From NCBI GenBank assembly GCA_030727405.1, contig JANRBR010000017.1:1-64000 (forward strand): a stretch of 64,000 nucleotides of DNA, in the 5' to 3' direction. This DNA comes from Crocinitomicaceae bacterium (GTDB lineage Bacteria > Bacteroidota > Bacteroidia > Flavobacteriales_D > Crocinitomicaceae). Shown here in pieces: positions 16,747-31,169 of this stretch (the first letter of the stretch is position 1; each line of letters starts with the position of its first letter). Under the pieces are notes generated by a model, which was not told where the DNA came from, did not search any database, and saw nothing but the letters and a program-made list of their open reading frames with translations. The position numbers and the translations under genes were made by a program.

Positions 16747-16774
16747 TTGTTTTCCGATTTTATTTTTATTTTTG
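16747..16774 (+). promoter_or_regulatory. Candidate promoter of the starch-binding protein gene
   Basis: The -7 box TATTTTTG (16767-16774) matches TAnnTTTG. A TTG at 16747-16749 is the best -33 candidate, but the 17-nt spacing is shorter than the usual 19-21. It would give a 5' UTR of about 45 nt and place the neighbouring palindrome at or just after the transcription start. Confidence 0.45.
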
Positions 16775-16778
16775 AAGT

Positions 16779-16796
16779 TGTCAATCTGACACTAAG
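16779..16796 (+). promoter_or_regulatory. Candidate operator 1 of the starch locus
   Basis: The inverted repeat TGTCA-ATC-TGACA is followed by CTAAG. Fifteen of 19 positions match the element upstream of susC; the common form is TGTCAAyyTGACAyTAAG. It lies just downstream of the candidate -7 box, where a bound protein could block initiation. The regulator is unknown; none is encoded in this locus. Confidence 0.55.
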
Positions 16797-16824
16797 TATT
16801 TTTTAACCTTTTAAAATTTAAACT

Positions 16825-17838
16825 ATGAAAAGAATGTTTACTTTTTTAGCTACTGTTTTCATTAGCGTAGCTTCTTATGCTCAATTTCCTGCTGTAGGGA
16901 TGATTGGTTCTGCGGTTCCTCCGTACGACTGGGCAACTGATTTCCCAATGCAAACAATGGATGGAAACATCTATGCAGGTATTGTTACTTGTGTTGATGG
17001 TGAGGCGAAATTTCGTCAAGACGGTGATTGGGCAATCAACTGGGGAGCAAATACATTCCCAGCTGGCGCAGGTGTTCAAGATGGTGCTAACATCCCAGTT
17101 ACTGCTGGAACTTATTTGGTTGTTTTTGACCGTACAACAGGAGCATACAATTTCATGACAGATTACACTGTAACTTACCAAGTTGATATTACTGCTTATT
17201 TGGCTGGTGGTGCAACATTGGCAGCAAATGGTATCCGTGTTGGTGGTGACTTTGGAACAAACCTAGGTTCAGTAGCTGCAGGTCCAATGGCTGATTGGTC
17301 TCCTGGAGATGCAAATTCTGCTATGACAGATTTAGGTAACAACATTTGGTCAATCGATGTAACTTACCCAGTTTCTACATTACAAGCAACTCAAATGTAC
17401 AAATTCGTAAATGGTGATTGGGGTTCAAATGAAGGAACTGATCCATTAAACACCATTGCTGTTGACTCTTGTGGAGTAGATGATGGTTCAGGAAACATCA
17501 ACCGTACGTATTTATTATTACCGGGAACAGTATGTTATGTTTGGGATGCATGTACAGCATGTGGATCAGGAAATGTTGCTGAAAATGCAATTAATAACTT
17601 GACTGTTTCTCCAAACCCAGCTACAGATGTTGCTAACTTCAAATTTGATGTGAACAACGCTACTGAAGCAACAATTACATTATTTGATTTAACAGGTAAA
17701 GCAGTTGCTACGAAAACAGTTGCGACATCTGCTTCAAACAATGTTGAATTAAACACAGCTAACTTGTCTGCTGGTTCTTACATTTACAAAGTGTTCGCTG
17801 GTGACAAAGTTTCTACTGGAAAATTGATCAAACAATAA
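16825..17838 (+). CDS. Secreted SusE/F-like starch-binding protein with T9SS sorting domain
   Basis: Predicted extracellular protein of 337 residues. Residues 1-19 are a signal peptide (cleavage after SYA). About 22-110 resembles the SusE/SusF starch-binding fold (VGMIGSAVPPYDW, FRQDGDWAINWG), and about 120-240 looks like a second carbohydrate-binding beta domain with a nearby Cys pair. The C-terminal ~80 residues are a T9SS type A sorting domain (VSPNPATD, ITLFDLTGKAV, LSAGSYIYKV, ending GKLIKQ). Classical SusE/F are lipoproteins, whereas this one is a T9SS cargo. As the first gene of the starch locus it probably binds starch at the surface; the ligand is inferred from context and fold resemblance. 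Well-biased codons suggest high expression. Confidence 0.8.
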   Translation: MKRMFTFLATVFISVASYAQFPAVGMIGSAVPPYDWATDFPMQTMDGNIYAGIVTCVDGEAKFRQDGDWAINWGANTFPAGAGVQDGANIPVTAGTYLVVFDRTTGAYNFMTDYTVTYQVDITAYLAGGATLAANGIRVGGDFGTNLGSVAAGPMADWSPGDANSAMTDLGNNIWSIDVTYPVSTLQATQMYKFVNGDWGSNEGTDPLNTIAVDSCGVDDGSGNINRTYLLLPGTVCYVWDACTACGSGNVAENAINNLTVSPNPATDVANFKFDVNNATEATITLFDLTGKAVATKTVATSASNNVELNTANLSAGSYIYKVFAGDKVSTGKLIKQ

Positions 17839-17859
17839 TTTTTCATAAATTAAAAGAAG

Positions 17860-17891
17860 GCCTAAGTTGAAATATACTTAGGCTTTTTTTT
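17860..17891 (+). terminator. Terminator/attenuator inside the starch locus
   Basis: GCCTAAGT (17860-17867) pairs with ACTTAGGC (17876-17883), followed by eight T. It lies only 17 nt before the start codon of the next gene, with no promoter visible in between, so it most likely lowers rather than ends transcription into the enzyme genes. Confidence 0.85.
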
Positions 17892-17908
17892 ACCTTAAAC
17901 ATTTCAAG

Positions 17909-20692
17909 ATGAAAAGCATATTCCTAACCGTATTGACGAGTTTTTATAGTTCGATGCTCATCGCACAAGTTTTAGATGTTTCCCCAGCGTTTCCCACGGT
18001 AAATGACGTGGTAACCATTACCTATGATGCCACTCAAGGAAATGGGACGCTCGTTGGTCAATCTCAAATTTATGCCCATGCCGGATTGATTACTTCAGCG
18101 AGTACATCGCCGTCGAACTGGCAATACGTTCAAGGAACTTGGGGAACCGTTGATCCTGAAGTTGCCATGACGAACATCGGGAATAATAAACACACCATCA
18201 CTATTGACATCGACCAATTTTATGGGTATCCCGTTGCAAGTACAACAGTATTGAAATTGGCATTTGTTTTTCGAAATGCAAGTGGAAACATTGTTGGACG
18301 AAATGCGGATGGAAGTGATATTTTTTATGATGTTTATCCAGTCAATTCTGGATTATTAGGTCAGTTTTTTCATCCAAATAATGGAAGCATCTTTAACCTA
18401 AATGATCAAATTGACATCGCTGCTGAAGCAAATACGCCATCCGTTTTAAATTTAAAGTTGGATGGAAGTACCCTATCTACATTGTCAAATGCTACCACCT
18501 TGGATTACATGTTGAATGCAAGTAATCCTGGTACGCACCTATTGGAATTTGAAGTGAATGATGGTGCAAACACCGTGATCGATAGTATTTATTTTACCGT
18601 AAATCCTACGGTGAACATTATCAATCCAAGTGTTTCTGGACTTGAGAATGGTGTAAATTACATCAATGACACCACGGTAATTTTGCAATTATATGCCCCG
18701 CAAAAGGAACATATCTATGTCATTGGTGATTTCAACAATTGGACACCCACCGCAGCCTACCACATGAATTTATCGACGAATAATTCAACCTGGTGGATTG
18801 AACTAAGCGGGCTTACTGCCGGACAAAAATATGGGTATCAATATTTCATCGACGGAGAAATGAAATTGGCGGATCCACTTAGCTCGATCATCTTAGACCC
18901 AAACAATGATGGAAACATTAATGCCTTAACGAATCCGAATCCACACCCTTATCCGATTGGTCAAACTACAGGATTTGTTTCCGTTTTTCAACCAGGAGCA
19001 ACTCCTTATAGTTGGCAAAACACCACATTTCAAGGTCCAGCAAAAAAAGATTTGGTCATTTATGAATTATTGGTGCGTGATTTCGTGGCAAAACACAATT
19101 ATCAAACCCTCATTGACACACTTGATTACCTAGACAAATTAGGCATCAATGCCATCGAATTAATGCCACCAGGAGAATTTGAAAACAATGAAAGTTGGGG
19201 CTACAATCCATCTTTTCATAAAGCCTTGGATAAGTATTATGGCACCCCAGAAAAATTCAAAGAATTTATAGACAGTTGCCACAATCGTGGAATTGCCGTT
19301 ATTGTTGATATGGTATTGAATCATGCATTCGGTCAAAATCCAATGGTCAATATGTATTGGGATGCGGTGAATAATCGTCCTGCAGCAAACAATCCTTGGT
19401 TTAATGCGATCTGTCCCCATGAACCCTATTGTTGGGGTTATGATTTTGATCATACACGAATGGCTACCCAAAATTACATTGACCAAGTAAATAAATATTG
19501 GTTAGATGAATACCATGTAGATGGATTCCGTTTTGATTATACCAAAGGATTTGTAAACAATGCATCGGGGTATAGCATGGAACGAATTAATTTGCTAAAA
19601 CGAATGGCAGATCAAATTTGGGATGTGAAATCAAACGCATATGTCATACTAGAACATTGGTGTGATAATTCCGAAGAGATTCAATTGGCGAATTACGGTA
19701 TGATGTTGTGGGGAAATGTAACGCATGCTTATCAGGAAGCGGGTATGGGTTATACTAGTTCTTCAAACATTAGTTCGGGAATTTACACGAATCGTACATG
19801 GACCGTTCCTCACTTGGTGAGTTACATGGAAAGTCACGATGAGGAGCGAATGATGTTTAAAAACATCAGTTTTGGAAACCAAACCAATCCAAATCATAAT
19901 GCAAAGAATTTGTATGTAGCATTAGGAAGAATGCAAACGGCGGCGGTGATTTTCCTGACACAACCTGGACCAAGAATGATTTGGCAGTTTGGCGAATTAG
20001 GATACGACATTTCCATTGATAACCCATGCCGCGTGTGCAACAAACCGATTCTATGGAATTATTACACGCAAGCACGCCGACGTCAATTATACGATGTTTA
20101 CTCCGCTACCTTAAAATTGAGAAATGATTATGAAACGTTTCGTTCCTTAAATTTCACTTACAATTTAAGTGGGGCAGTAAAAAAAATGAAAATGACACAT
20201 CCATCGATGAACGGTGTAGTCATTACCAATTTTGATGTGAACAATCAAATCGGTTCACCTAATTTCCACCACAATGGTTGGTGGTATGAATATTTTTCAG
20301 GTGATAGTTTAAACGTGACCGATGTGAACATGAACTTTTCGCTTCAACCAGGAGAATACCGTATCTATACAGATGTTCGCCTAGAACAACCAACAATTAC
20401 TGACGCACCTGTTTCCATTGAGGAATTGTTAAATTCAGCTTTTGAATTGGTTGTATACCCCAATCCGAGTAGTGATTATATCAATCTAAAGTTCCAAGCA
20501 CTTGATTTTAGTCCGGTTGAAATCGTTGTTTTAGACCAAACAGGAAAAGAAATTTACACACACAAGGGTTTTTCGAATTTTGGTGAAAATCAATTTGAAA
20601 TCAATGTAGGTGATTGGCCTAGTGGATCCTATCACTCGATTATTCGCCTAGGAAAACTTGTGGCAAACGAAGCATTTTTGATTCAACATTGA
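17909..20692 (+). CDS. Multidomain GH13 alpha-amylase with T9SS sorting domain
   Basis: Predicted secreted enzyme of 927 residues cutting alpha-1,4-glucans. Signal peptide 1-19 (IAQ end); a beta domain about 20-145; an Ig-like segment about 152-235 (FFHPNNGSIF); a CBM48-like domain about 255-330 (IYVIGDFNNWTP, KYGYQYFIDG); GH13 barrel about 380-800. Conserved regions: DMVLNH (467-472), GFRFDYTK with nucleophile Asp543, VILEHW with acid/base Glu582, and ESHDEE with Asp644. The last ~80 residues are a T9SS sorting domain (VVYPNPSSDYINLKF, VVLDQTGKEI, WPSGSYHSII). Its TGA overlaps the ATG of the CotH gene by one base. The exact specificity (amylase or pullulanase type) cannot be told from sequence alone. 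Confidence 0.9.
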   Translation: MKSIFLTVLTSFYSSMLIAQVLDVSPAFPTVNDVVTITYDATQGNGTLVGQSQIYAHAGLITSASTSPSNWQYVQGTWGTVDPEVAMTNIGNNKHTITIDIDQFYGYPVASTTVLKLAFVFRNASGNIVGRNADGSDIFYDVYPVNSGLLGQFFHPNNGSIFNLNDQIDIAAEANTPSVLNLKLDGSTLSTLSNATTLDYMLNASNPGTHLLEFEVNDGANTVIDSIYFTVNPTVNIINPSVSGLENGVNYINDTTVILQLYAPQKEHIYVIGDFNNWTPTAAYHMNLSTNNSTWWIELSGLTAGQKYGYQYFIDGEMKLADPLSSIILDPNNDGNINALTNPNPHPYPIGQTTGFVSVFQPGATPYSWQNTTFQGPAKKDLVIYELLVRDFVAKHNYQTLIDTLDYLDKLGINAIELMPPGEFENNESWGYNPSFHKALDKYYGTPEKFKEFIDSCHNRGIAVIVDMVLNHAFGQNPMVNMYWDAVNNRPAANNPWFNAICPHEPYCWGYDFDHTRMATQNYIDQVNKYWLDEYHVDGFRFDYTKGFVNNASGYSMERINLLKRMADQIWDVKSNAYVILEHWCDNSEEIQLANYGMMLWGNVTHAYQEAGMGYTSSSNISSGIYTNRTWTVPHLVSYMESHDEERMMFKNISFGNQTNPNHNAKNLYVALGRMQTAAVIFLTQPGPRMIWQFGELGYDISIDNPCRVCNKPILWNYYTQARRRQLYDVYSATLKLRNDYETFRSLNFTYNLSGAVKKMKMTHPSMNGVVITNFDVNNQIGSPNFHHNGWWYEYFSGDSLNVTDVNMNFSLQPGEYRIYTDVRLEQPTITDAPVSIEELLNSAFELVVYPNPSSDYINLKFQALDFSPVEIVVLDQTGKEIYTHKGFSNFGENQFEINVGDWPSGSYHSIIRLGKLVANEAFLIQH

Positions 20693-22110
20693 TGAAAATC
20701 CTATACGGCATATTAATCATTTTTGTCACGCAAGGAGTACAGGCACAGTTTGTTCATCCAGCAAATAATAATGCCTTTCTTCAAACGGAAGTAGCCTCGG
20801 TTTATGTCACCATGTCTTCACAAGATGCCTGGACCATGGTAAACGATAGTTTATACAGTGACTTTCCTTTTGTTTCATCGGTCATCTATTCCAGTTCAAC
20901 CATTCAAGACACTATTTTAACGGTAGGAATCCACGTTCGAGGCAATACATCGAGGGATGCAGGCAAAAAATCATTTGAGCTTTCATTTAACACCTACGTT
21001 CAAGGCCGAAAGTATAGAGGTTTAGAAAAAATGAAATTGAATGGTGAACACAACGATGTTTCCATTTTGAGATCTAAATTAGCGAATGAATTGTGTGCTC
21101 AAGCCGGCATTATTGCTCCACGTACCAGTTATGTGAAATTATTCATCAATAATGTTTACAAAGGCTTGTATATAAACGTTGAGCATACAGACGATGAATT
21201 TATTCAAAAACGCTTTCCGAATGATCATACTGGTAATTTGTTTAAATGTTCCTATGGGTCAGATTTGACCTACCATGGAGCAGGTGTGGGTTATTATCAA
21301 AATACGTATGAATTAAAAACAAATGAACTTTCCAATGATTATTCAGGCTTGATTTATTTTATTAATATTTTAAATAATTCAACACCTACAAATTTTGTTT
21401 GTGACATTCAAGAAGTTTTTGATGTTGATTCTTATTTGAGAACCCTAGCCATGGAAATATTAATGGGACAATGGGATGGGTATGCCTATAACAAAAACAA
21501 TTTCTTCTTGTATGAAAGGCCTTCAGATGGTAAATTTATATTCATTGAATACGATTTGGACAATACCTTCGGCATCGATTGGTTTAACATCGATTGGTCC
21601 AGTCGATCCATCTATTCATGGGCCAATGCAAATCGGCCATTATACTCGAAATTGTTAGCGGTACCCTATTTTAAGGATCGGTTTAATTTTCACATGAAAG
21701 ACATCCTAACAAATGATTTTCAACCAAGTACGATTTTAAATTACCTTCAAAACACCCAAAATATGATTTCCAGTGCGGCCATATTGGATGATTTTAAAGG
21801 ATTGGACTACGGATTCACCGATCAAGATTTTTTAAATGCGATTGACCAAGCTTGGGGTTTTCATGTGACACAGTCGCTCAGTGAATACATTGAAAATAGG
21901 TATGCAACGGCTAATGCGCAAGTATTGAATTTTCAAGGAATTCAAAACCCATGTACAGTTGGAGTATTTGATTTGGAAATGAACAATGCATCGAAACCTA
22001 TGCAAGCTTTTGATTTGCTCGGAAGGGAAATCCCGCTGAATGCAAAAAATTGCATCAAAATGGTACGCTATGAAAATGGCACGGTTAAACAACTTTATGA
22101 ACATGAATAA
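20692..22110 (+). CDS. CotH-family (kinase-like) secreted protein
   Basis: A 472-residue exported protein of the CotH kinase-like family; the B. subtilis member phosphorylates spore-coat proteins, but the role of Bacteroidetes members is not established. Signal peptide 1-19 (GVQAQ). Family features: VRGNTSR, KSFELSF, LNGEHNDVSILRSKLANEL, KLFINNVYKGLYINVEHTDD, LFKCSYGSDL and the putative metal-site motif IEYDLDNTFG. A full T9SS domain is absent, but the end (FDLLGREIPLNAKN then VRYENGTVKQL) resembles the terminal part of one. The start ATG overlaps the TGA of the upstream amylase, and the next amylase begins before this stop, so translation is coupled to both. The single-codon upstream TTG is an alternative start. 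Confidence 0.85.
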   Translation: MKILYGILIIFVTQGVQAQFVHPANNNAFLQTEVASVYVTMSSQDAWTMVNDSLYSDFPFVSSVIYSSSTIQDTILTVGIHVRGNTSRDAGKKSFELSFNTYVQGRKYRGLEKMKLNGEHNDVSILRSKLANELCAQAGIIAPRTSYVKLFINNVYKGLYINVEHTDDEFIQKRFPNDHTGNLFKCSYGSDLTYHGAGVGYYQNTYELKTNELSNDYSGLIYFINILNNSTPTNFVCDIQEVFDVDSYLRTLAMEILMGQWDGYAYNKNNFFLYERPSDGKFIFIEYDLDNTFGIDWFNIDWSSRSIYSWANANRPLYSKLLAVPYFKDRFNFHMKDILTNDFQPSTILNYLQNTQNMISSAAILDDFKGLDYGFTDQDFLNAIDQAWGFHVTQSLSEYIENRYATANAQVLNFQGIQNPCTVGVFDLEMNNASKPMQAFDLLGREIPLNAKNCIKMVRYENGTVKQLYEHE

Positions 22111-24001
22111 GCGATTTTTTCTATCTATGGTAATCATTTGTGCTTTTCAACTCAATGCACAAGTATTAAAACATGTTGAGCCTGCGAACTGGTGGGTTGG
22201 AATGGAACACCATGAAGTTCAACTATTATTGCACGGCACAAATATTGCGCAATACCAAGTTGAAATTTCTGGACTACCAATTACAGGAATAATTAAAACG
22301 GAAAATCCCAATTACCTTTTCGTAAGTGTGGAAACAAAAGACAAAGTAGCTGGCACTTATCCAATCACACTAAAAGACAAGAAAAAGGAAATGGCTCATT
22401 TCGACTTCAAGTTAGAAGAACGAATGAACAATAGTGCGCAGCGTGAAAGTTATTCTTCCGCAGATGTGATCTACCTATTAATGCCGGATCGTTTTGCCAA
22501 TGCGAACGAAGGACTTGATACACATCCGGATACCAAAGAAGTATCTGATCGGGCAAATCCAGGTGGAAGACACGGTGGAGATATCATGGGAATTATTCAG
22601 CATTTGAATTACATCAAAGAATTGGGTGCGACCGCGATTTGGACCACTCCAATGCTCGAGGATAACGAAGAAACCTATTCATATCATGGTTATGCCCAGT
22701 CAGATTTGTATAAAATTGACCCACGTTATGGAACCAATTCTTGGTATAAAGAAATGGTACTTGAAGCACATCGCCAAGGATTAAAAGTCATCAAGGATGA
22801 AGTCCCGAATCACTGGTCGAGTAAACATTGGATGATTCAAGATTTGCCTTCGCAAGATTGGATCCATCAATTTCCATCGTTTACACGTTCAAGCTACCGA
22901 ACAAGTACGCAAATGGATCCCTATGCTTCCGAAAAGGACAAACGAGCATCCGAAGACGGTTGGTTCGATACAACCATGCCGGACATGAATCAATCCAATC
23001 CAATATTATTGACGTACTTGATTCAAAATACCATCTGGTGGATTGAATATGCGCAATTAGATGGACTACGTGTAGATACCTATTCTTACAATGAAAAAGA
23101 GGCGATTTCAAAATGGACCAAAGCCATTACAGACGAATACCCTCGTTTGAACATCATGGGTGAAGTTTGGATGCACAATCAAGCGCAAATTTCTTATTGG
23201 CAAAAAGAAAGTCCCGTAGGTGCGATTGATTCATACAATAGCTACCTTCCAACCGTTATGGATTTTACCATGCACGATGCATTCATGCAGGCTTTTAATG
23301 AAACGAAACAAGATTGGGACAAAGGTATGGTTCGATTTTACGACAATATTGCCAACGATTACTTGTATAAGGATCCTTCCAATTTGCTCGTGTTTTTTGA
23401 AAACCATGACACCAAACGCTTCAATGAATATTGTCCGAATCTCGCGGACTATAAATTAGCAATGACGCTTATTTCTACTACACGTGGCATTCCCCAGATT
23501 TATTATGGATCTGAAATAGGCATGAAAGGAAGCAAAGATCTAGGTGACGCAGATATTCGTCGGGACTTCCCTGGTGGTTGGGCGGCTGATCGTCACACCG
23601 CTTTTTGCAGCAGCGAAGATGGCAAGTGCCATGCTTATCAAACAGGACGTACACCAGAAGAGGAATCATATTTTCAGTTTACCAAGTCTTTATTGAATTG
23701 GAGAAAAAACAATAAAGTCATTCACGAAGGTAAATTGATGCAATTTGTTCCGGAAAATAATGTCTATGTCTATGCTCGTTACAAGGAGCCAAATGGGATG
23801 TATGATATGCCAGGGAAGCAGGTCGTTTTGGTGATAATCAATAACTCCACGAAGGAGGAAACGATTCGTTGGGACCGTTATCAAGAAATGATTCAAGGCA
23901 AAGAAATAGGTGTGGATGCACTGACCAATCAAACCGTAAATTTCGACCTTAAAACTGCTACAATTCCAGCAAAAACAGCTTACATTCTCGAAATTAAATA
24001 A
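22097..24001 (+). CDS. GH13 cyclomaltodextrinase/neopullulanase-like amylase
   Basis: A 634-residue exported glycoside hydrolase of the SusA/neopullulanase type. Signal peptide about 1-21 (FQLNAQ). An N-terminal beta domain (about 25-105) is followed by a GH13 barrel: YLLMPDRFANAN, DEVPNH (region I), GLRVDTYSY with nucleophile Asp327, IMGEVWMH with acid/base Glu356, and FFENHDTKRF with Asp438. No T9SS domain is present, so a periplasmic location is likely, where imported oligosaccharides would be cut. It overlaps the CotH gene by 14 nt; the alternative ATG six bases downstream (22103) is equally plausible. It is followed 2 nt later by the GH31 gene. Confidence 0.92.
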   Translation: MNMNKRFFLSMVIICAFQLNAQVLKHVEPANWWVGMEHHEVQLLLHGTNIAQYQVEISGLPITGIIKTENPNYLFVSVETKDKVAGTYPITLKDKKKEMAHFDFKLEERMNNSAQRESYSSADVIYLLMPDRFANANEGLDTHPDTKEVSDRANPGGRHGGDIMGIIQHLNYIKELGATAIWTTPMLEDNEETYSYHGYAQSDLYKIDPRYGTNSWYKEMVLEAHRQGLKVIKDEVPNHWSSKHWMIQDLPSQDWIHQFPSFTRSSYRTSTQMDPYASEKDKRASEDGWFDTTMPDMNQSNPILLTYLIQNTIWWIEYAQLDGLRVDTYSYNEKEAISKWTKAITDEYPRLNIMGEVWMHNQAQISYWQKESPVGAIDSYNSYLPTVMDFTMHDAFMQAFNETKQDWDKGMVRFYDNIANDYLYKDPSNLLVFFENHDTKRFNEYCPNLADYKLAMTLISTTRGIPQIYYGSEIGMKGSKDLGDADIRRDFPGGWAADRHTAFCSSEDGKCHAYQTGRTPEEESYFQFTKSLLNWRKNNKVIHEGKLMQFVPENNVYVYARYKEPNGMYDMPGKQVVLVIINNSTKEETIRWDRYQEMIQGKEIGVDALTNQTVNFDLKTATIPAKTAYILEIK

Positions 24002-24003
24002 GC

Positions 24004-26430
24004 ATGAAAAAGCTACTCTTTTTCCTTTTTGTTTCTACCATTAGTTGGGGACAAAATGCAACGCGTCAATTTGTCTCCATTGAAAAAGCAGACAATGGTT
24101 TCAAAGTAAAAGTTTCCGATGGTGCGTATTATTTTTCAGCATGGTCCGCAAAGATCGTCGAAACGACTTTTATCCCAAATGGACAAGTGCATTCTGCAAC
24201 ATCACATGCTGTTGTAGCTCCCGTTAATTCGGACATCCTTGAGATGGATTCGTTGCAAGGAATAATCAGTTTGACAACCAACGAGGAATTAAAAATTGAC
24301 ATTCAAAAAAAACCATTTCAGATTAGTTACTGGTATATGAAAAAACCGGTCATTTCTGAAAATTGGGGCTATGAGAAATCAGATGAAGCAGAAAAAATAC
24401 ATTTCAATTTAACCCAAGATGAATTGCTTTATGGAGCAGGGGCACGTGCTTTGGGAATGAACCGACGCGGTTATCGTTTGCAATTGTACAACCGTGCGCA
24501 TTATGGATACGAAGAACATTCAGAATTGATGAATTACACGATGCCAATGGTCGTTTCGAATAAATGTTATGCCATTCATTTCGATAATGCACAAATTGGC
24601 TATTTGGATTTAGATTCAAAAAAGAACAATGTGTTGACCTATGAAACAATCGGAGGACGCAAAACCTATCAAGTGATTGTGGGGGATGATTGGAAAGATC
24701 TCTTGTCAGAATACACCGATTTAACTGGACATCAACCCATGCCTCCGCGATGGGCATTTGGTAATTTTGCGAGCCGTTTTGGTTACCATTCGGAAACTGA
24801 AGCGAGAAATGTGGTGAATCAATTTCGAAAAGATTCCATTCCATTGGATGCGATTATTTTCGATTTATATTGGTTTGGAAAAGAAATTCAAGGAACACTC
24901 GGTAATTTGTCCTTTTACACCGATTCCTTTCCGCATCCGAAAGAGATGATTCAGGATTTCACGAATCAACAAGTAAAAACAGTGTTGATTACGGAGCCAT
25001 TCATTTTAACTACCTCCAAAAAATGGCAAGAAGCATCAGATAAAAAAATCTTGGGAACCAATGAACTTGGTGCTCCTTTTACCTATGATTTTTATTTCGG
25101 CAACACCGGATTAATCGACGTATTTAAACCGGAAGCTAGAAATTGGTTCTGGGACATTTACAAGGATTTACATCAATACGGTGCACGCGGATTTTGGGGT
25201 GATTTAGGTGAGCCCGAGGTACATCCCGCAAAATTAAAGCATGCCGTTGGCTACGCTGATGAAGTTCATAACATTTATGGACATGAATGGGCAAAGTTAA
25301 TTTATGAAGGCTATCAAAAAGATTACCCAAATGAACGTCCTTTTATCTTGATGCGTTCAGGGAGTTCTGGAACACAGCGTTTCGGAATCATTCCCTGGTC
25401 TGGTGATGTTAACCGAACTTGGGGAGGATTGCGACCGCAGGTGGAAATAAGTTTGCAAATGGGACTGCAAGGAATTGCCTATATGCATTCAGATTTAGGC
25501 GGATTTGCAGGTGCGAATGATGATCCAGAATTGTATGTTCGTTGGTTGCAATACGGTGTTTTTCAACCGATTTTTCGTCCACATGCCCAACAGGAAGTTG
25601 CAAGCGAGGCAATATTTAAAGACGAGAAAACCAAGCAACTTGCGAAAGAAGCCATCGAATTACGTTACCAAATGTTGCCATATAACTATTCATTGGCCTT
25701 CGAAAATCACGTGCATGGAACACCCTTGATGCGTCCAGTTTTCATGGAGGACACAAACGCGAAATGGACGGAGTCAAGCGCAGATGAATACATGTGGGGC
25801 AGTTGTTTTTTGGTGAATCCAATTACAAAAAAGATAGAAGCTAATTCTTTGCCCATTCAAGTGGTGCATGCGCCGGCAGGAACATGGTATGATTTTAAGT
25901 CCGGCAGAGAAGCAACTCCTTTGCACATTGAGACAGGAGATATAAGTACAGATGAACCAAACATAAAAACGGATCAGAAATTCTTGATTGGTGGAGATTT
26001 GTCCTCGATTCCAGTATTGGTAAAAGGAGGTTCTTTTGTTCCTTTATCACCCGTTTTTCAGTCCACCGAAGCCTATGTTGATACAGCTGTTACCATTCAT
26101 TATTACGATGCAGAGGAGCTGACAACAAGCGAGGGTATTTGGTACGAGGATGATGGAGTTACCAACGAAGCATATGAGAAAGGACTATATAAATACCTTT
26201 ATATGAAAATGACGCAATCATCAAAGAAAACCAAATTGACCTTTGCTCCGCACTATGGTGAGTTGATACAAAAGAATGAGTTTATTTTTGATGTGTGCAT
26301 TCATTCAGAACGAATTCCCAAACGCATTTTGATTAATGGAAAGAAAATTAAATTCAATGCTGCTAACCAACACATCCAGTTGGAATTGAAATTATCCGAG
26401 AAAGTTCAAAACATTCAATTGAATTGGTGA
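24004..26430 (+). CDS. GH31 alpha-glucosidase
   Basis: An 808-residue exported enzyme releasing alpha-linked glucose from maltodextrin ends. Signal peptide 1-16 (STISWG). The N-terminal galactose-mutarotase-like domain (to about 235) leads into the barrel at QPMPPRWAFGNFASRFGY. The nucleophile Asp400 lies in GFWGDLGEPE and the acid/base Asp468 in PWSGDVNRTWGG. C-terminal beta domains contain VLVKGGSFVPL and YEDDGVTNEAYEKG. The Bacteroides Sus system uses a GH97 (SusB) at this step; here a GH31 takes that place. Last gene before the susC promoter. Confidence 0.94.
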   Translation: MKKLLFFLFVSTISWGQNATRQFVSIEKADNGFKVKVSDGAYYFSAWSAKIVETTFIPNGQVHSATSHAVVAPVNSDILEMDSLQGIISLTTNEELKIDIQKKPFQISYWYMKKPVISENWGYEKSDEAEKIHFNLTQDELLYGAGARALGMNRRGYRLQLYNRAHYGYEEHSELMNYTMPMVVSNKCYAIHFDNAQIGYLDLDSKKNNVLTYETIGGRKTYQVIVGDDWKDLLSEYTDLTGHQPMPPRWAFGNFASRFGYHSETEARNVVNQFRKDSIPLDAIIFDLYWFGKEIQGTLGNLSFYTDSFPHPKEMIQDFTNQQVKTVLITEPFILTTSKKWQEASDKKILGTNELGAPFTYDFYFGNTGLIDVFKPEARNWFWDIYKDLHQYGARGFWGDLGEPEVHPAKLKHAVGYADEVHNIYGHEWAKLIYEGYQKDYPNERPFILMRSGSSGTQRFGIIPWSGDVNRTWGGLRPQVEISLQMGLQGIAYMHSDLGGFAGANDDPELYVRWLQYGVFQPIFRPHAQQEVASEAIFKDEKTKQLAKEAIELRYQMLPYNYSLAFENHVHGTPLMRPVFMEDTNAKWTESSADEYMWGSCFLVNPITKKIEANSLPIQVVHAPAGTWYDFKSGREATPLHIETGDISTDEPNIKTDQKFLIGGDLSSIPVLVKGGSFVPLSPVFQSTEAYVDTAVTIHYYDAEELTTSEGIWYEDDGVTNEAYEKGLYKYLYMKMTQSSKKTKLTFAPHYGELIQKNEFIFDVCIHSERIPKRILINGKKIKFNAANQHIQLELKLSEKVQNIQLNW

Positions 26431-26442
26431 TAAAATTCTATG

Positions 26443-26460
26443 TGTCAACTTGACATTAAG
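26443..26460 (+). promoter_or_regulatory. Candidate operator 2 of the starch locus
   Basis: TGTCAA-C-TTGACA is a perfect 6+1+6 inverted repeat followed by TTAAG, and shares TGTCAAyyTGACAyTAAG with the element upstream of the starch-binding protein gene. It covers the TTG of the susC -33 element, so a bound protein would compete with, or position, RNA polymerase. Confidence 0.6.
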
Positions 26461-26480
26461 AAAAATAAAAAATATATTTG
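26450..26480 (+). promoter_or_regulatory. Promoter of susC-susD
   Basis: TTG (26450-26452), a 20-nt spacer and TATATTTG (26473-26480) match the Bacteroidetes primary-sigma consensus TTTG-N19-21-TAnnTTTG. The start codon is 30 nt downstream. The gap after the GH31 gene therefore probably contains a second promoter, so that susCD can be expressed apart from the enzymes. Confidence 0.75.
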
Positions 26481-26510: not shown

Positions 26511-29500
26511 ATGACTTCTATGGTTCAAAAAATTACACGAACATTTGCTGTATTTACCAGTTTTATGTTGGTATCCATTCTTTCTTTTGCGCAAAATGCA
26601 AGCGTGAAAGGATTGGTGAAAGATGCCGACGGACAAGCTTTATACAATGCATCTGTAACAGTTGAAGGTAAGTACAAGGGTGCGATGACAAACGAAAAAG
26701 GTTACTATGAAATCTCTGGTTTGTCCGCAGGAAAGTATACTTTGATTTATCGCTTCATGGGAATGGAGACTGTTAAACAAAACATTGAATTGCAGGAAAA
26801 TCAAGCTTTAATCAAGGACATGACCTTGCAATCAAGAGCAAAGGAGGAAAATGAAGTAGTTGTTATTGGTTATGGTACTTCTCGAACAAAAGACTTGACA
26901 GGTTCCGCAACGGTCATCAACGAGAAAAATTTCGTTCAAGGTTCACTTTCCTCGCCTGAGCAATTGATCATGGGTAAAGTCGCAGGTCTAAAAGTTACCT
27001 CTAACGATGGCGCTCCTGGATCTGGAAGCACCTTGCGTTTGCGCGGTGGAACCTCGATTAATGCAAGCAACGACCCGTTAATCGTGGTAGATGGAGTTCC
27101 TTTAGATAATGGTGGAATTGCTGGTGTAGCAAATCCATTGTCTTTAATTAATCCGAACGACATCGCTTCTTTTGTAGTTTTAAAAGATGCATCGGCTACA
27201 GCGATCTATGGTTCACGTGCAGCGAATGGTGTCATCATTATCACAACCAAAAAAGGGGATGGTGGTAAAAATGCGCCATTGAAAATTGTGTTAGACACTA
27301 AAATATCTCAGTCAACCATTGCAAAATATGCAGATGTATTGAGTGCGGACTCATTGCGTTCCCTTGTCAATGCGAGAGGAACCAATGCTCAGAAAGCCTT
27401 GCTAGGAGATTCTTCTACCGATTGGCAAAAACAAGTTTTTCGCAATGCAATGGTGTTAGACAACAACCTATCCATAACAGGTGGCATCAAGAATTTCCCT
27501 TACCGATTGTCCATTGGTAACAGAAATGAAAACGGAATCTTAAAAAGAGATCAATTCAACCGTACTTCAGTTGGTTTGAATATGAGTCCTTCATTCTTCA
27601 ATAATACCTTGTTACTAGAATCCAATTTGAAATACATTCAAACCAATTCGTTCTTTGCCAATCGCGGTGCTTTAGGAGCGGCTTATTTTGACCCAACACA
27701 ACCAATTTACTCTGGAAATGAGAATTACAACGGGTATTTCGAATGGGTTGATAATGGAAAACCAAATACATTGTCTGCAAGAAATCCATTGGGATTGATC
27801 AATCAAACAGAAGACGTAAGTAAAGTAAACCGTGCGATTGCAAACGCGAAATTAAGCTACAGTTTTCCAACAATCGAAGGATTGAAAGCCATTGTGAATG
27901 TTGGAGGTGATTTCTCGGAAGGAAATGGTTATGTGATTACGGACTCCAATTCTGCAGCAGGTTATTTTACAAACGGTCGATATTCTGAGTATTTATCTAG
28001 AAAAGAAAACAAATTGATCGAAACCTATGCAAATTATAACTCAGGTGATCGTTTTAATGACCAAGTACTAGATTTCACTGCTGGATATTCTTACCAAGAT
28101 TGGATGAGTAGAGGTCCAAATAATCCTGCCTACAATCAAGCACAAGATTCAATTATTCAACCAGCTTCTAGTCCATTCCCGAATTACACGAAAAATGTAT
28201 TATTATCTTATTATGCTCGTGCTATTTATAGTTACAAAGGAAGGTATATTGTGAATGCATCTTTACGTAGAGATGGATCTTCTCGCTTCAGTCCAGAACA
28301 ACGTTGGGGCTTATTCCCGGCGGTTTCTGCAGCGTGGTTGATTAATGAAGAAAATTTCCTGAAGGATTCTAAAACGATCAACATGTTGAAATTACGTGCT
28401 GGTTGGGGTATTACTGGTCAACAAGACGGGATTGGTGATTACTCATACATAGGAAACTATTTCCTTGGTGCATCGACTGCTCAATATGCGTTTGGAGGAC
28501 AATATTACCAAGTACTACGTCCAGCAGGATTCGATGCAAATTTGAAGTGGGAGACCACGACTAGTTACAATTTTGGTTTGGACTTTGGATTTAAAAACGA
28601 TCGTTTTTCTGGAAGTATCGATGTTTACCGCAAAGAAACAAGTGACTTATTGGCAACGGTTCCGGTGCCAGCAGGTACAAATTTCACCAACGAGATTTTA
28701 ACGAATGTTGGTGGGATGAGAAACCAAGGGGTTGAATTGAGTCTGAATGTAGGTTTAATTGCTACCAAAAACATGCGTTTGGATTGGACGGTGAATGGAA
28801 CATATAATGAAAACAGCGTAACGAAATTATCGCGTGTAGCCGACACCACTTCTCCAGGTGTACTAGTAGGTGGAATTGGTGGTGGAATTGGTAATACCAT
28901 CCAAGTTCACCAAGTTACATATCCTACTTTCACTTATTTTGTATTAGAGCAACAATACGATTCAAATGGTGACATGATTCAGGTTGGTGAATTGGCTAAC
29001 GTAGATGTAAATAATGACGGTGTAGTAACTGCGGCTGATAAATGGAAAGACACAAGTGCATATGTTGATCGAAACAATGATGGTATCATCAATATTGATG
29101 ACCGTTACTATGCGGGTCAAGCAGCAGCAAAGATGTTCCTAGGAACAGCATTTAACTTTACTTACAAAAAATGGTATGCTGGTTTCTCCATGAGAAGTGA
29201 ACTTGGCGCAACCATCTACAATAACTTGCACTCGAATAGCGCTACTTTCCAAACAGTTGATGGAACGAAAAAATATTTGAACAACATCAGCTCGCTTTAT
29301 TACGAAGATGAGGTTCAAAAAACCACGACAAATCAGTTATTATCTGATCACTATTTGGAAAAAGCAGATTTCTTACGCATGGACTTCGTGAACATTGGTT
29401 ATCGTTTTGGTAAATTGAAATTCACGAACAACAAGCTTGGTTTGAATGCAAGCTTTACCGTGCAAAACGTTTTTGTTGTAACGAATTACAAAGGACAAGA

Positions 29501-29582
29501 TCCTGAGGTGAACGGAGGAATTGATAACAATTTCTACCCACGTCCACGAGTTTACTCATTGAACCTAACATTTGACTTCTAA
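26511..29582 (+). CDS. susC: SusC/RagA-family TonB-dependent outer-membrane transporter
   Basis: A 1023-residue outer-membrane barrel that imports oligosaccharides with its SusD lid. Signal peptide about 1-27 (ILSFAQ); carboxypeptidase-regulatory-like domain about 30-105; TonB-box-like EVVVIGYGT at 115-123; plug domain with PLIVVDGVPLDNG and DASATAIYGSRAANGVIIIT; then the beta-barrel, ending RPRVYSLNLTFDF with terminal Phe. Substrate (starch or maltooligosaccharides) is inferred from the adjoining GH13/GH31 genes. susD follows after a few bases. A second ATG three codons in is an alternative start. Confidence 0.95.
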   Translation: MTSMVQKITRTFAVFTSFMLVSILSFAQNASVKGLVKDADGQALYNASVTVEGKYKGAMTNEKGYYEISGLSAGKYTLIYRFMGMETVKQNIELQENQALIKDMTLQSRAKEENEVVVIGYGTSRTKDLTGSATVINEKNFVQGSLSSPEQLIMGKVAGLKVTSNDGAPGSGSTLRLRGGTSINASNDPLIVVDGVPLDNGGIAGVANPLSLINPNDIASFVVLKDASATAIYGSRAANGVIIITTKKGDGGKNAPLKIVLDTKISQSTIAKYADVLSADSLRSLVNARGTNAQKALLGDSSTDWQKQVFRNAMVLDNNLSITGGIKNFPYRLSIGNRNENGILKRDQFNRTSVGLNMSPSFFNNTLLLESNLKYIQTNSFFANRGALGAAYFDPTQPIYSGNENYNGYFEWVDNGKPNTLSARNPLGLINQTEDVSKVNRAIANAKLSYSFPTIEGLKAIVNVGGDFSEGNGYVITDSNSAAGYFTNGRYSEYLSRKENKLIETYANYNSGDRFNDQVLDFTAGYSYQDWMSRGPNNPAYNQAQDSIIQPASSPFPNYTKNVLLSYYARAIYSYKGRYIVNASLRRDGSSRFSPEQRWGLFPAVSAAWLINEENFLKDSKTINMLKLRAGWGITGQQDGIGDYSYIGNYFLGASTAQYAFGGQYYQVLRPAGFDANLKWETTTSYNFGLDFGFKNDRFSGSIDVYRKETSDLLATVPVPAGTNFTNEILTNVGGMRNQGVELSLNVGLIATKNMRLDWTVNGTYNENSVTKLSRVADTTSPGVLVGGIGGGIGNTIQVHQVTYPTFTYFVLEQQYDSNGDMIQVGELANVDVNNDGVVTAADKWKDTSAYVDRNNDGIINIDDRYYAGQAAAKMFLGTAFNFTYKKWYAGFSMRSELGATIYNNLHSNSATFQTVDGTKKYLNNISSLYYEDEVQKTTTNQLLSDHYLEKADFLRMDFVNIGYRFGKLKFTNNKLGLNASFTVQNVFVVTNYKGQDPEVNGGIDNNFYPRPRVYSLNLTFDF

Positions 29583-29594
29583 AAAATGATGGCC

Positions 29595-31169
29595 ATGAAA
29601 AAAATAATCGCATACACTTTTATTACAGTTTCCCTATTTTTGGTTTCGTGTAATAAACAATTAAATCAGTCGCCAAAGTACGGCTTAAATGCCGAGGCTG
29701 TTTACAGCAATCCAGATCAATACATACACGTTTTAGCGAAATTGTATTCTGGAATGTCCATGACAGGAAATCAAGGTCCTGCGGGATCTGCGGATATCGC
29801 GGGCATCGATGAAGGATTCTCCGCATACATTCGTGTATTATGGAACCTACAAGAGCTTCCAACGGATGAGGCAATCTGTGGATGGAATGACCCAGGAATT
29901 CCTGATTTGAATAAATCTCAATGGAATGCAGACAACGTTTGGGTGAAAGGGATGTATTACCGCATCTATTACCAAATCACGCTTTGCAATGAATTCATTT
30001 GGCAAGCTCGCGAAGAGAAATTAACCACTCGTGGATTCTCAGAAGCCAAAATGGATGAAATCCGAACCTTCCGTGAAGAAGCACGTTTCTTGCGTGCGAT
30101 GGCATACTACCATGCAATGGACCTTTTTGGTAACGTACCTTTCGTGACAGAAAATGATCGAGTAGGTGCATTTGAACCAGCACAGATTAGTCGTGCAGAT
30201 TTATTCAAATACATCGAAGATGAATTGAAAGCGGTTGAAACCACACTTCTAGATCCAACAGCCGTTCCTTATGGAAGAGCGTCAAAAGCAGCAGCTCAAG
30301 CGCTTATGGCAAAAATGTACTTGAACGCTGAAGTTTATTTAGGTACAGGTAATGACTATTACTCGGAATGTGCAACGTATTGCGAAAAAGTAATGAATAC
30401 TGGCGCGTTTTCGTTAGATGACCGTTACCAAGATTTATTTTTAGCAGACAATAACACCTCTCCTGAAATCATCTTCCCAATCGTTTACGATGGCTTGTAT
30501 GCTCAAACATGGGGAGGAACAACGTTTATGGTATGTGCATCTTTAGGAGGAACAATGGTTGCTGCTGATTATGGTGTCAATGGAAAATGGGCCGGGCTCC
30601 GTGCTACAGCACCTTTCATCGATAAATTTGTGGATACAACACAAGATACACGTTGGATGTTCTATACAGGAGGACAACAAAAGGAAATCACGAGCATGTC
30701 TACATTTACACACGGTTATGCTAATCCAAAATTCAAGAATAAGACTTCTACCGGTGGAAGTGCGTCAAACAATTCGACCTCTCCTCACACGGACATCGAT
30801 TTTCCTTTATTGCGCCTTGGCGATATTTATTTGATGTATGCAGAAGCACAATTGCGTATGGGTAATGAGGCAACAGCGATTCAGTATGTAAACTTTATCC
30901 GTGAAAGAGGATATGGGAATTCATCCTACAATGTAACAAGTTTAACCTTGGATGACATCTTAGATGAGCGTGCTCGCGAAATGCAATGGGAAGCAACCAG
31001 AAGAACGGATTTAATCCGTTTCGGATACTTTACTAGCGGCGATTATGTTTGGCCATTTAAAGGTGGCGATGTGACAGGTGTTGCATTACCTTCCTATGCG
31101 AATTTATACCCGATTCCAACAGCGGATATCGTATTAAATAGAAACTTAACCCAAAATCCGGGGTACTAA
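29595..31169 (+). CDS. susD: SusD/RagB-family glycan-binding lipoprotein
   Basis: A 524-residue surface lipoprotein that binds glycan and closes the SusC barrel. The chosen ATG gives the lipoprotein signal MKKIIAYTFITVSLFLVSC with lipobox Cys19; two ATGs just upstream are possible but add nothing. Family features: EAVYSNPDQYIHVLAKLYSG, the TPR-like helices (FREEARFLRAMAYYHAMDLFGNVP), and the C-terminal LRLGDIYLMYAEAQLR and ILDERAREMQWEATRRTDLIRF. It follows susC by about 12 nt and ends in a strong terminator, closing the starch locus. Confidence 0.95.
   Translation: MKKIIAYTFITVSLFLVSCNKQLNQSPKYGLNAEAVYSNPDQYIHVLAKLYSGMSMTGNQGPAGSADIAGIDEGFSAYIRVLWNLQELPTDEAICGWNDPGIPDLNKSQWNADNVWVKGMYYRIYYQITLCNEFIWQAREEKLTTRGFSEAKMDEIRTFREEARFLRAMAYYHAMDLFGNVPFVTENDRVGAFEPAQISRADLFKYIEDELKAVETTLLDPTAVPYGRASKAAAQALMAKMYLNAEVYLGTGNDYYSECATYCEKVMNTGAFSLDDRYQDLFLADNNTSPEIIFPIVYDGLYAQTWGGTTFMVCASLGGTMVAADYGVNGKWAGLRATAPFIDKFVDTTQDTRWMFYTGGQQKEITSMSTFTHGYANPKFKNKTSTGGSASNNSTSPHTDIDFPLLRLGDIYLMYAEAQLRMGNEATAIQYVNFIRERGYGNSSYNVTSLTLDDILDERAREMQWEATRRTDLIRFGYFTSGDYVWPFKGGDVTGVALPSYANLYPIPTADIVLNRNLTQNPGY

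Follow-up and report, generated by a model that had tools for sequence, protein, structure and literature searches.

Within a 64,000-nucleotide stretch of a Crocinitomicaceae bacterium genome (contig JANRBR010000017.1, positions 1–64,000; hereafter the window), a locus for starch use carries a palindromic motif at two promoters, one upstream of the first gene of the locus, which encodes a secreted protein, and one upstream of susC. This motif is a real, conserved element. Comparison of sequences across related genomes further indicates that it is very probably the operator of NrtR-A, a regulator of the NrtR family encoded on another contig, whose ligand-free dimer would act as a repressor until released by a sugar derived from starch.

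The sequence-only reading of the window had placed 18-bp copies of the motif at 16779–16796, before the first gene (TGTCAATCTGACACTAAG), and at 26443–26460, before susC (TGTCAACTTGACATTAAG). Both positions are correct, and these are the only matches without mismatch in the window, as that reading held in reporting none elsewhere. It had also suggested a genome-wide scan, which returned no flood of copies: the exact pattern TGTCAANNTGACANTAAG occurs twice in the 2.23-Mb genome (2,233,639 bases in 42 contigs, 99.75% complete), both times at the starch promoters. Allowing two mismatches gave 13 matches compared to 5 for a reversed-pattern control, representing 12 places as the susC site was counted on both strands. 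These comprise the two starch promoters, five positions inside open reading frames and five that precede other genes. The genes concerned are zwf, followed by pgl and edd, then eda, pdhA, a FabH-like gene, and nrtR-A and badF, which diverge from one intergenic region. Exact copies of the 13-mer core at C15:105 and C40:28519 lie within open reading frames and were set aside as chance matches (part of the 77 rows of core matches in this genome was inspected). The motif with at most one mismatch was present in 56 of 100 relatives, the source genome included, and three of them (G016, G022 and G059) held 8–9 matches per genome compared to none for the reversed pattern.

Conservation was assessed among orthologs in the same genus by searching for the 18-mer, with up to three mismatches, within 350 bases upstream of each gene. 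The site was found at 28 of 29 susC orthologs and at 13 of 14 orthologs of the first gene, the latter count being partly circular as 13 of these 14 rows came from loci fetched at or near motif matches; the two starch promoters thus keep the motif, a check that the sequence-only reading had proposed. It was likewise found upstream of zwf (32/32 with a 60% identity floor, 50/50 with a 40% floor), pdhA (32/34), nrtR-A (34/46) and badF (34/47), the last two counts concerning a single shared intergenic region. Genes inside the same operons served as controls and gave no matches (pdhC 0/32, pgl 0/30, susD 0/25, amylase 0/29; 0/116 in total), while shuffled controls gave at most 5%. Identity floors were set per gene, and tblastn matches that began past query residue 60 or had fewer than 100 bases upstream were dropped; susC, eda, pdhA and gapA were searched in 37 of the 61 genomes of the genus, with the remaining rows taken from other fetched loci.

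Alignment of ortholog promoters extended the element to a 23-bp palindrome, CTTAGTGT-N7-ACACTAAG, of which the 18-mer represents the core and right arm. The sequence-only reading had described the core as an inverted repeat; the palindrome reaches further than it saw, spanning 16774–16796 at the first gene (GAAGTTGTCAATCTGACACTAAG) and 26438–26460 at susC (CTATGTGTCAACTTGACATTAAG). At the first gene the core and right arm are strong and the left arm is weak, most orthologs there showing five mismatches to the palindrome. The other full sites in the source genome, at zwf (CTTAGTGTATTTTTGACACAAAC), nrtR-A/badF (CTTTGTGTCATTTTTACACTATC), pdhA (CTTAGTGTAAAAATGACAATTTG) and eda (CTTTGTGTCAAACTGACATCTAT), are weaker copies than those at the starch promoters. 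An explanation without any regulator, in which the shared sequence is a chance likeness or a piece of the core promoter, would fit the overlap of the site with promoter boxes at several genes and the count within the window, where three mismatches gave 4 matches compared to 3.3 expected from shuffles. As there is no excess, the two copies alone are modest evidence and it is conservation that decides. We consider this explanation extremely improbable given the conservation relative to controls, the presence of the same palindrome beside regulator genes in other families, and the fact that the position relative to the -7 box varies from gene to gene (+1, +15, -26) while the palindrome stays constant.

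The sequence-only reading saw no regulator gene in the locus and took the motif for a candidate operator, with the starch regulator encoded elsewhere. This is supported. Among the seven genes of the locus Pfam detected no regulator domain, and the best candidate is the NrtR-family protein NrtR-A, encoded on another contig (G000:C35:110667-111419, where G000 is the source genome). The 251-residue product has an N-terminal Nudix domain (PF00293, 29.5 bits, cut-off 21.1) and a C-terminal winged helix (PF21906, 91.8 bits, cut-off 27). Its Nudix box is degraded (RVLEELTGL compared to the active signature REUXEEXGU given in PMC4666351), with two glutamates replaced. Domain architecture and impaired catalytic box both mark it as a member of the NrtR family, and a further family trait, a semi-palindromic operator of ~21 bp that also lies by the regulator's own gene, was found for nrtR-A; the score against the NCBIfam NrtR equivalog was 116 bits, the cut-off being 400. 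The gene is divergent from one for a BadF-like kinase (match below the Pfam cut-off), and their shared promoter carries the site; badF heads an operon that includes genes for a GH13 amylase, an MFS transporter, a HAD protein that we read from its match as beta-phosphoglucomutase-like, and a GH65 protein that, from its family, is probably a maltose phosphorylase.

Orthologs of nrtR-A were found in 47 of the 61 genomes of the genus, with an additional fragment at a contig end in G010. In a tree of 89 rows, for which the named relatives of the regulator were the best 80 of at least 583 loci, NrtR-A fell within a 53-row clade (clade A; support 99/99). The named records nearest to it (L385–L392) are metagenome-assembled genomes labelled Flavobacteriales, Crocinitomicaceae, Bacteroidetes and, once, Lishizhenia tianjinensis. 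A motif-free search for paired 5-base half-sites with a spacing of 7 returned AGTGT-N7-ACACT by 20 of 46 clade-A genes, with the next half-site found at most twice, compared to 1 of 31 NrtR genes outside the clade. The full palindrome with up to four mismatches was present at 34 of 46 clade-A loci, compared to ~1% for shuffles. Some clade-A regulators belong to Bacteroidales (L442 7744-11803 from Marinifilum flexuosum, with a similar layout in L423, L436 and L439) and are followed by a gene of ~530–545 codons, whose L442 copy looks by eye like a symporter gene, and by another of ~810–830 codons, which in L442 encodes a GH94 phosphorylase by Pfam; the sugar range of clade A may thus exceed starch.

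It is improbable that a regulator of another family (LacI, SusR-like or Crp-like) reads the site, with the copy at nrtR-A reflecting mere co-regulation. Binding by NrtR-A is deduced from sequence, and no genome-wide search was made for SusR or Crp-like genes, both of which leave some room for this alternative. However, the LacI domain PF00356 had no match in the source genome at E ≤ 0.001, while the same search was positive in 9 of 14 control genomes, so that the LacI-type regulator envisaged by the sequence-only reading is not supported. SusR of Bacteroides governs a starch SusCD locus, as we propose for NrtR-A, but is described in PMC3878776 as a maltose-binding activator whose sites are direct repeats with long spacers, whereas the conserved site here is a tight inverted repeat; the Crp-like consensus given there, wwwTATGTTnTAnAACATAwww, is equally unlike it. 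The fit to AraR chemistry seen in the site, in the recognition residues and in the variants of the paralogs would moreover have to be a coincidence. We assign the motif with good confidence to a regulator of the NrtR/AraR kind rather than of the LacI family, as a new branch and a new role within that known kind; no paper recognisable as describing control of starch, maltose or glycolysis by an NrtR-type protein was among the matches listed in a literature search.

The closest solved protein to NrtR-A is BtAraR (E 7.5e-47), which is BT0354 (PDB 5BS6, 5DDG and 5DEQ) and is assigned to the NrtR family (PMC4666351). According to that source, oligonucleotides used in gel shifts with BtAraR contain GTGT-N7-ACAC, and Lys179, Arg180 and Asn181 read GTGT, with Lys179 bonding the first G and Arg180 inserting between bases. 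All three residues are kept in NrtR-A, where the helix reads Asp-Lys-Arg-Asn-Phe-Arg with Arg at the place of Lys184; from the AraR DNA-contact set (Lys179, Arg180, Asn181, Lys184, Lys204, Arg205), the mapping covered the first four. The two proteins thus share a Nudix-like sensor joined to a winged helix, GTGT-N7-ACAC operators and three DNA-reading residues, and AraR controls polysaccharide loci together with sugar catabolism (PMC4666351), like the regulon proposed for NrtR-A. They differ in that AraR answers L-arabinose and controls araMPRDAB (PMC4666351), whereas the neighbours of NrtR-A are maltose, starch and glycolytic genes, with no arabinose gene cluster at nrtR-A. BtAraR lies outside clade A and pairs with L408 and L412 (100/99). 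NrtR-A also has an insertion before the PDARV stretch and Asn/Leu instead of Gly48/Phe49 (numbering of this analysis) in the arabinose pocket; equivalents of the arabinose-binding residues Arg34 and His131 are kept, and Arg86 falls at an ambiguously placed gap. XylR of Bacteroides (BT0791) is another NrtR-family regulator of sugar catabolism, in this case of the xylose pathway (PMC4666351, PMC3878776), and is likened to NrtR-A by description, not by sequence. NrtR of Shewanella oneidensis (3GZ5) has the same family architecture, and the NrtR regulators of NAD metabolism act on NAD genes via ADP-ribose (PMC4666351), unlike the role proposed for NrtR-A.

At four promoters the positions of the sites, taken relative to the best-scoring -7/-33 pair nearby, suit a repressor. 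At zwf the -7 box falls at the centre of the palindrome (49/50) and at badF the site lies just past that box (31/44), while at the first gene the operator centre lies 15 bases after the -7 centre (10/13 orthologs) and at susC the operator covers the -33 box with its centre 26–27 bases before the -7 centre (21/28). In the window, the susC operator covers the -33 TTG, with the -7 box TATATTTG at 26473–26480, and the full site at the first gene begins on the last base of its -7 box TATTTTTG (16767–16774), both much as the sequence-only reading described. No convincing promoter was found near the site at eda. We infer that NrtR-A acts as a repressor, the ligand-free dimer binding CTTAGTGT-N7-ACACTAAG over or beside the -33 and -7 boxes and shutting off both starch operons, zwf-pgl-edd and the divergent promoter of its own gene; it would also act at eda and pdhA. 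AraR comes off its DNA when arabinose binds (PMC4666351), and by analogy the inducer would be a starch-derived sugar, for which glucose or a glucose phosphate is the likely candidate. Binding of this sugar by the Nudix domain would release the repressor, and the genes for capturing starch, cleaving maltose and running the Entner-Doudoroff pathway would then be induced together.

The source genome also encodes a second NrtR protein, NrtR-B (G000:C23:10164-10781), between genes for an MFS transporter and a TonB-dependent receptor. The NrtR-B locus (L094 1647-7000) has palindromes of its own, CTTATTGT-N7-ACAATAAT, and across 11 genomes the pattern CTTATTGT-N7-ACAATAAG/T was found with up to three mismatches in 10 and with up to two in 7. 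NrtR-B falls outside clade A in the tree, and its recognition helix reads DKAN rather than the DKRN of NrtR-A, with Ala at the place of Arg180. Other genomes encode six NrtR proteins with DTRN, in which Lys179 is replaced by Thr (L465, L466, L468, L469, L470 and L472), and two with DKAN (L474), and ATTGT-type sites with 0–1 mismatch were found in all DTRN and DKAN loci examined, that of L472 being half AGTGT and half ATTGT. The base that changes from G to T between the two operator types is the one contacted by Lys179 in the AraR crystal (PMC4666351). That the crystal structure, the altered residues and the altered operators agree in this way is the strongest argument for the mechanism, from a small sample whose members are partly related by descent. 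Two DKRN proteins (L475 and L476) had neither an AGTGT nor an ATTGT site at up to three mismatches. Four further loci (L433, L446, L455 and L462) encode Pro or Ser at the place of Arg180 and have palindrome-like TTATGGT/TTATAGT sequences upstream, a weak hint, from few loci, of a third operator flavour. The FabH-like gene of the source genome is preceded by an intergenic palindrome that is half ATTGT and half AGTGT (CTTATTGTCATTTATACACTAAG, L005 1501-1523, G000:C12:11891), and is a possible target of both paralogs.

Several observations weigh against control of these sites by NrtR-A. The site at eda reached the threshold in 14 of 28 orthologs, so that eda would be a target in only part of the genus; 12 of 46 nrtR-A promoters also fell short, and gapA, with 2 of 11, was rejected as a genus-wide target. 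Positions at pdhA are mixed, the commonest being -37 (13/30), which would also suit an activator. The full palindrome with up to four mismatches was found at 9 of 31 NrtR loci outside clade A; the half-site is therefore not private to the clade and the pattern is partly common to related regulators, as would be expected from the AraR operator. The main exception is G020, which is rated 100% complete and has no nrtR-A in its assembly, but keeps the sites at susC, zwf, eda, pdhA and the first gene. No nrtR-A was found in twelve further genomes of the 61, and of those whose zwf promoter was scored, G001, G018, G032, G044 and G053, all less than 95% complete, keep AGTGT-type zwf sites. We tentatively read these absences as assembly gaps or recent loss.

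G020 has only NrtR-B, and the left arm of the zwf site is ATTGT-like in three genomes without nrtR-A (G039, G045 and G006), as well as in one that has it (G050), which would fit sites read by NrtR-B or by both paralogs. We consider this unlikely, because NrtR-B loci bear a different palindrome, Ala stands in for Arg180 in the NrtR-B recognition helix, the site in question lies in the promoter of nrtR-A itself, and the motif-free search by clade-A genes yielded AGTGT. AGTGT-type zwf sites were present in 39 of 40 genomes with nrtR-A compared to 7 of 10 without it (Fisher 0.02). We do not rely on this link as a main support for NrtR-A, since the three genomes that depart from the rule seem to be related to one another, and a fragment of the gene is present in G010, which was scored as lacking it.

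Outside the genus, nrtR-A and badF are divergent in 16 of 17 loci, drawn from five other families, and the badF operon includes pfkA in 13 and gapA in 7, with starch genes behind or beside nrtR-A in 7. The palindrome (up to four mismatches) was found upstream of pfkA in 15 of 16 non-genus genomes with NrtR-A compared to 1 of 11 without it (G077; Fisher 1.4e-5), these being the 27 non-genus genomes for which a pfkA locus was returned; of the 39 genomes in which PFK was matched, 9 yielded no locus to score. Most of these sites are the shared divergent promoter, while in G067 and G083 the site precedes pfkA on a contig other than that of nrtR-A. One of the 15 matches is weak (G063, four mismatches), and in G096 the best match lies 226 bases upstream with a second, four-mismatch site abutting pfkA; G042 was labelled as regulator-bearing in this scoring, although the regulator search found no nrtR-A there. 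The genus has its sites at Entner-Doudoroff genes and mostly lacks PFK, which was detected in 6 of its 61 genomes, the source genome not among them, compared to 33 of 39 others, while Zwf was found in 52 of 61 compared to 6 of 39. Three PFK-bearing members of the genus were scored for a site at pfkA, and none had one.

Entner-Doudoroff operons of G091, G080 and G076 have ATTGT-type sites with 0–1 mismatch, while the site is a weak ATTGT type in G095 (three mismatches), mixed in G086 and lacking in G097. From these operator states across genomes we tentatively suggest, as a scenario that is plausible but somewhat less than probable, that NrtR paralogs with operators one base per half-site apart (AGTGT for NrtR-A, ATTGT for NrtR-B and for DTRN-type relatives) divide glucose catabolism in Flavobacteriales. 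The Entner-Doudoroff operon of the genus may have passed from ATTGT to AGTGT control by small operator changes as pfkA, the older target of NrtR-A, was mostly lost, the regulon moving with the pathway. In a Flavobacteriia metagenome-assembled genome (L393, 1-14741), a single locus combines GH65-bPGM-MFS-GH13-badF, nrtR-A, zwf-pgl-edd-eda and susD-susC, with sites before badF and zwf.

Control of starch loci in Bacteroidota is commonly viewed in terms of the Bacteroides SusR or of hybrid two-component systems. If the operator is that of NrtR-A, a large uncultured group of Flavobacteriales would run both starch capture and its main glucose pathway through one cytoplasmic Nudix-type repressor, giving a role to proteins that might otherwise be mistaken for plain NUDIX hydrolases. 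The paralogs would offer a natural experiment on how one operator base is set by a recognition residue, and on how a regulator keeps pace when phosphofructokinase glycolysis is exchanged for the Entner-Doudoroff pathway.

The locus itself lies on the forward strand, as do both operators and -7 boxes. The first gene (16825–17838) encodes a secreted protein with a type IX secretion system (T9SS) tail and weak matches to SusF_SusE and X25, both below the Pfam cut-off. It is followed by genes that Pfam assigns to a secreted GH13 alpha-amylase with a CBM48-like region and a T9SS tail (17909–20692), a CotH-type protein (20689–22110), a GH13 cyclomaltodextrinase-type enzyme (22040–24001) and a GH31 alpha-glucosidase-type enzyme (24004–26430), and then, behind the second operator, by susC, encoding a TonB-dependent receptor (26511–29582), and susD (29586–31169). 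Elsewhere in the genus, a near-perfect palindrome, ATTAGTGTCAATTTGACACTAAT in G020 (L099 2081-2103), lies upstream of a gene for an NADP-type glutamate dehydrogenase, and also in G010, G011, G013 and G054; this count of 5 of 5 for gdhA was not taken as a test of conservation because the loci had been chosen by the motif. In two members of the genus a site also lies just upstream of a gene for a TPR protein (L107 2054-2076 and L108 1985-2007).

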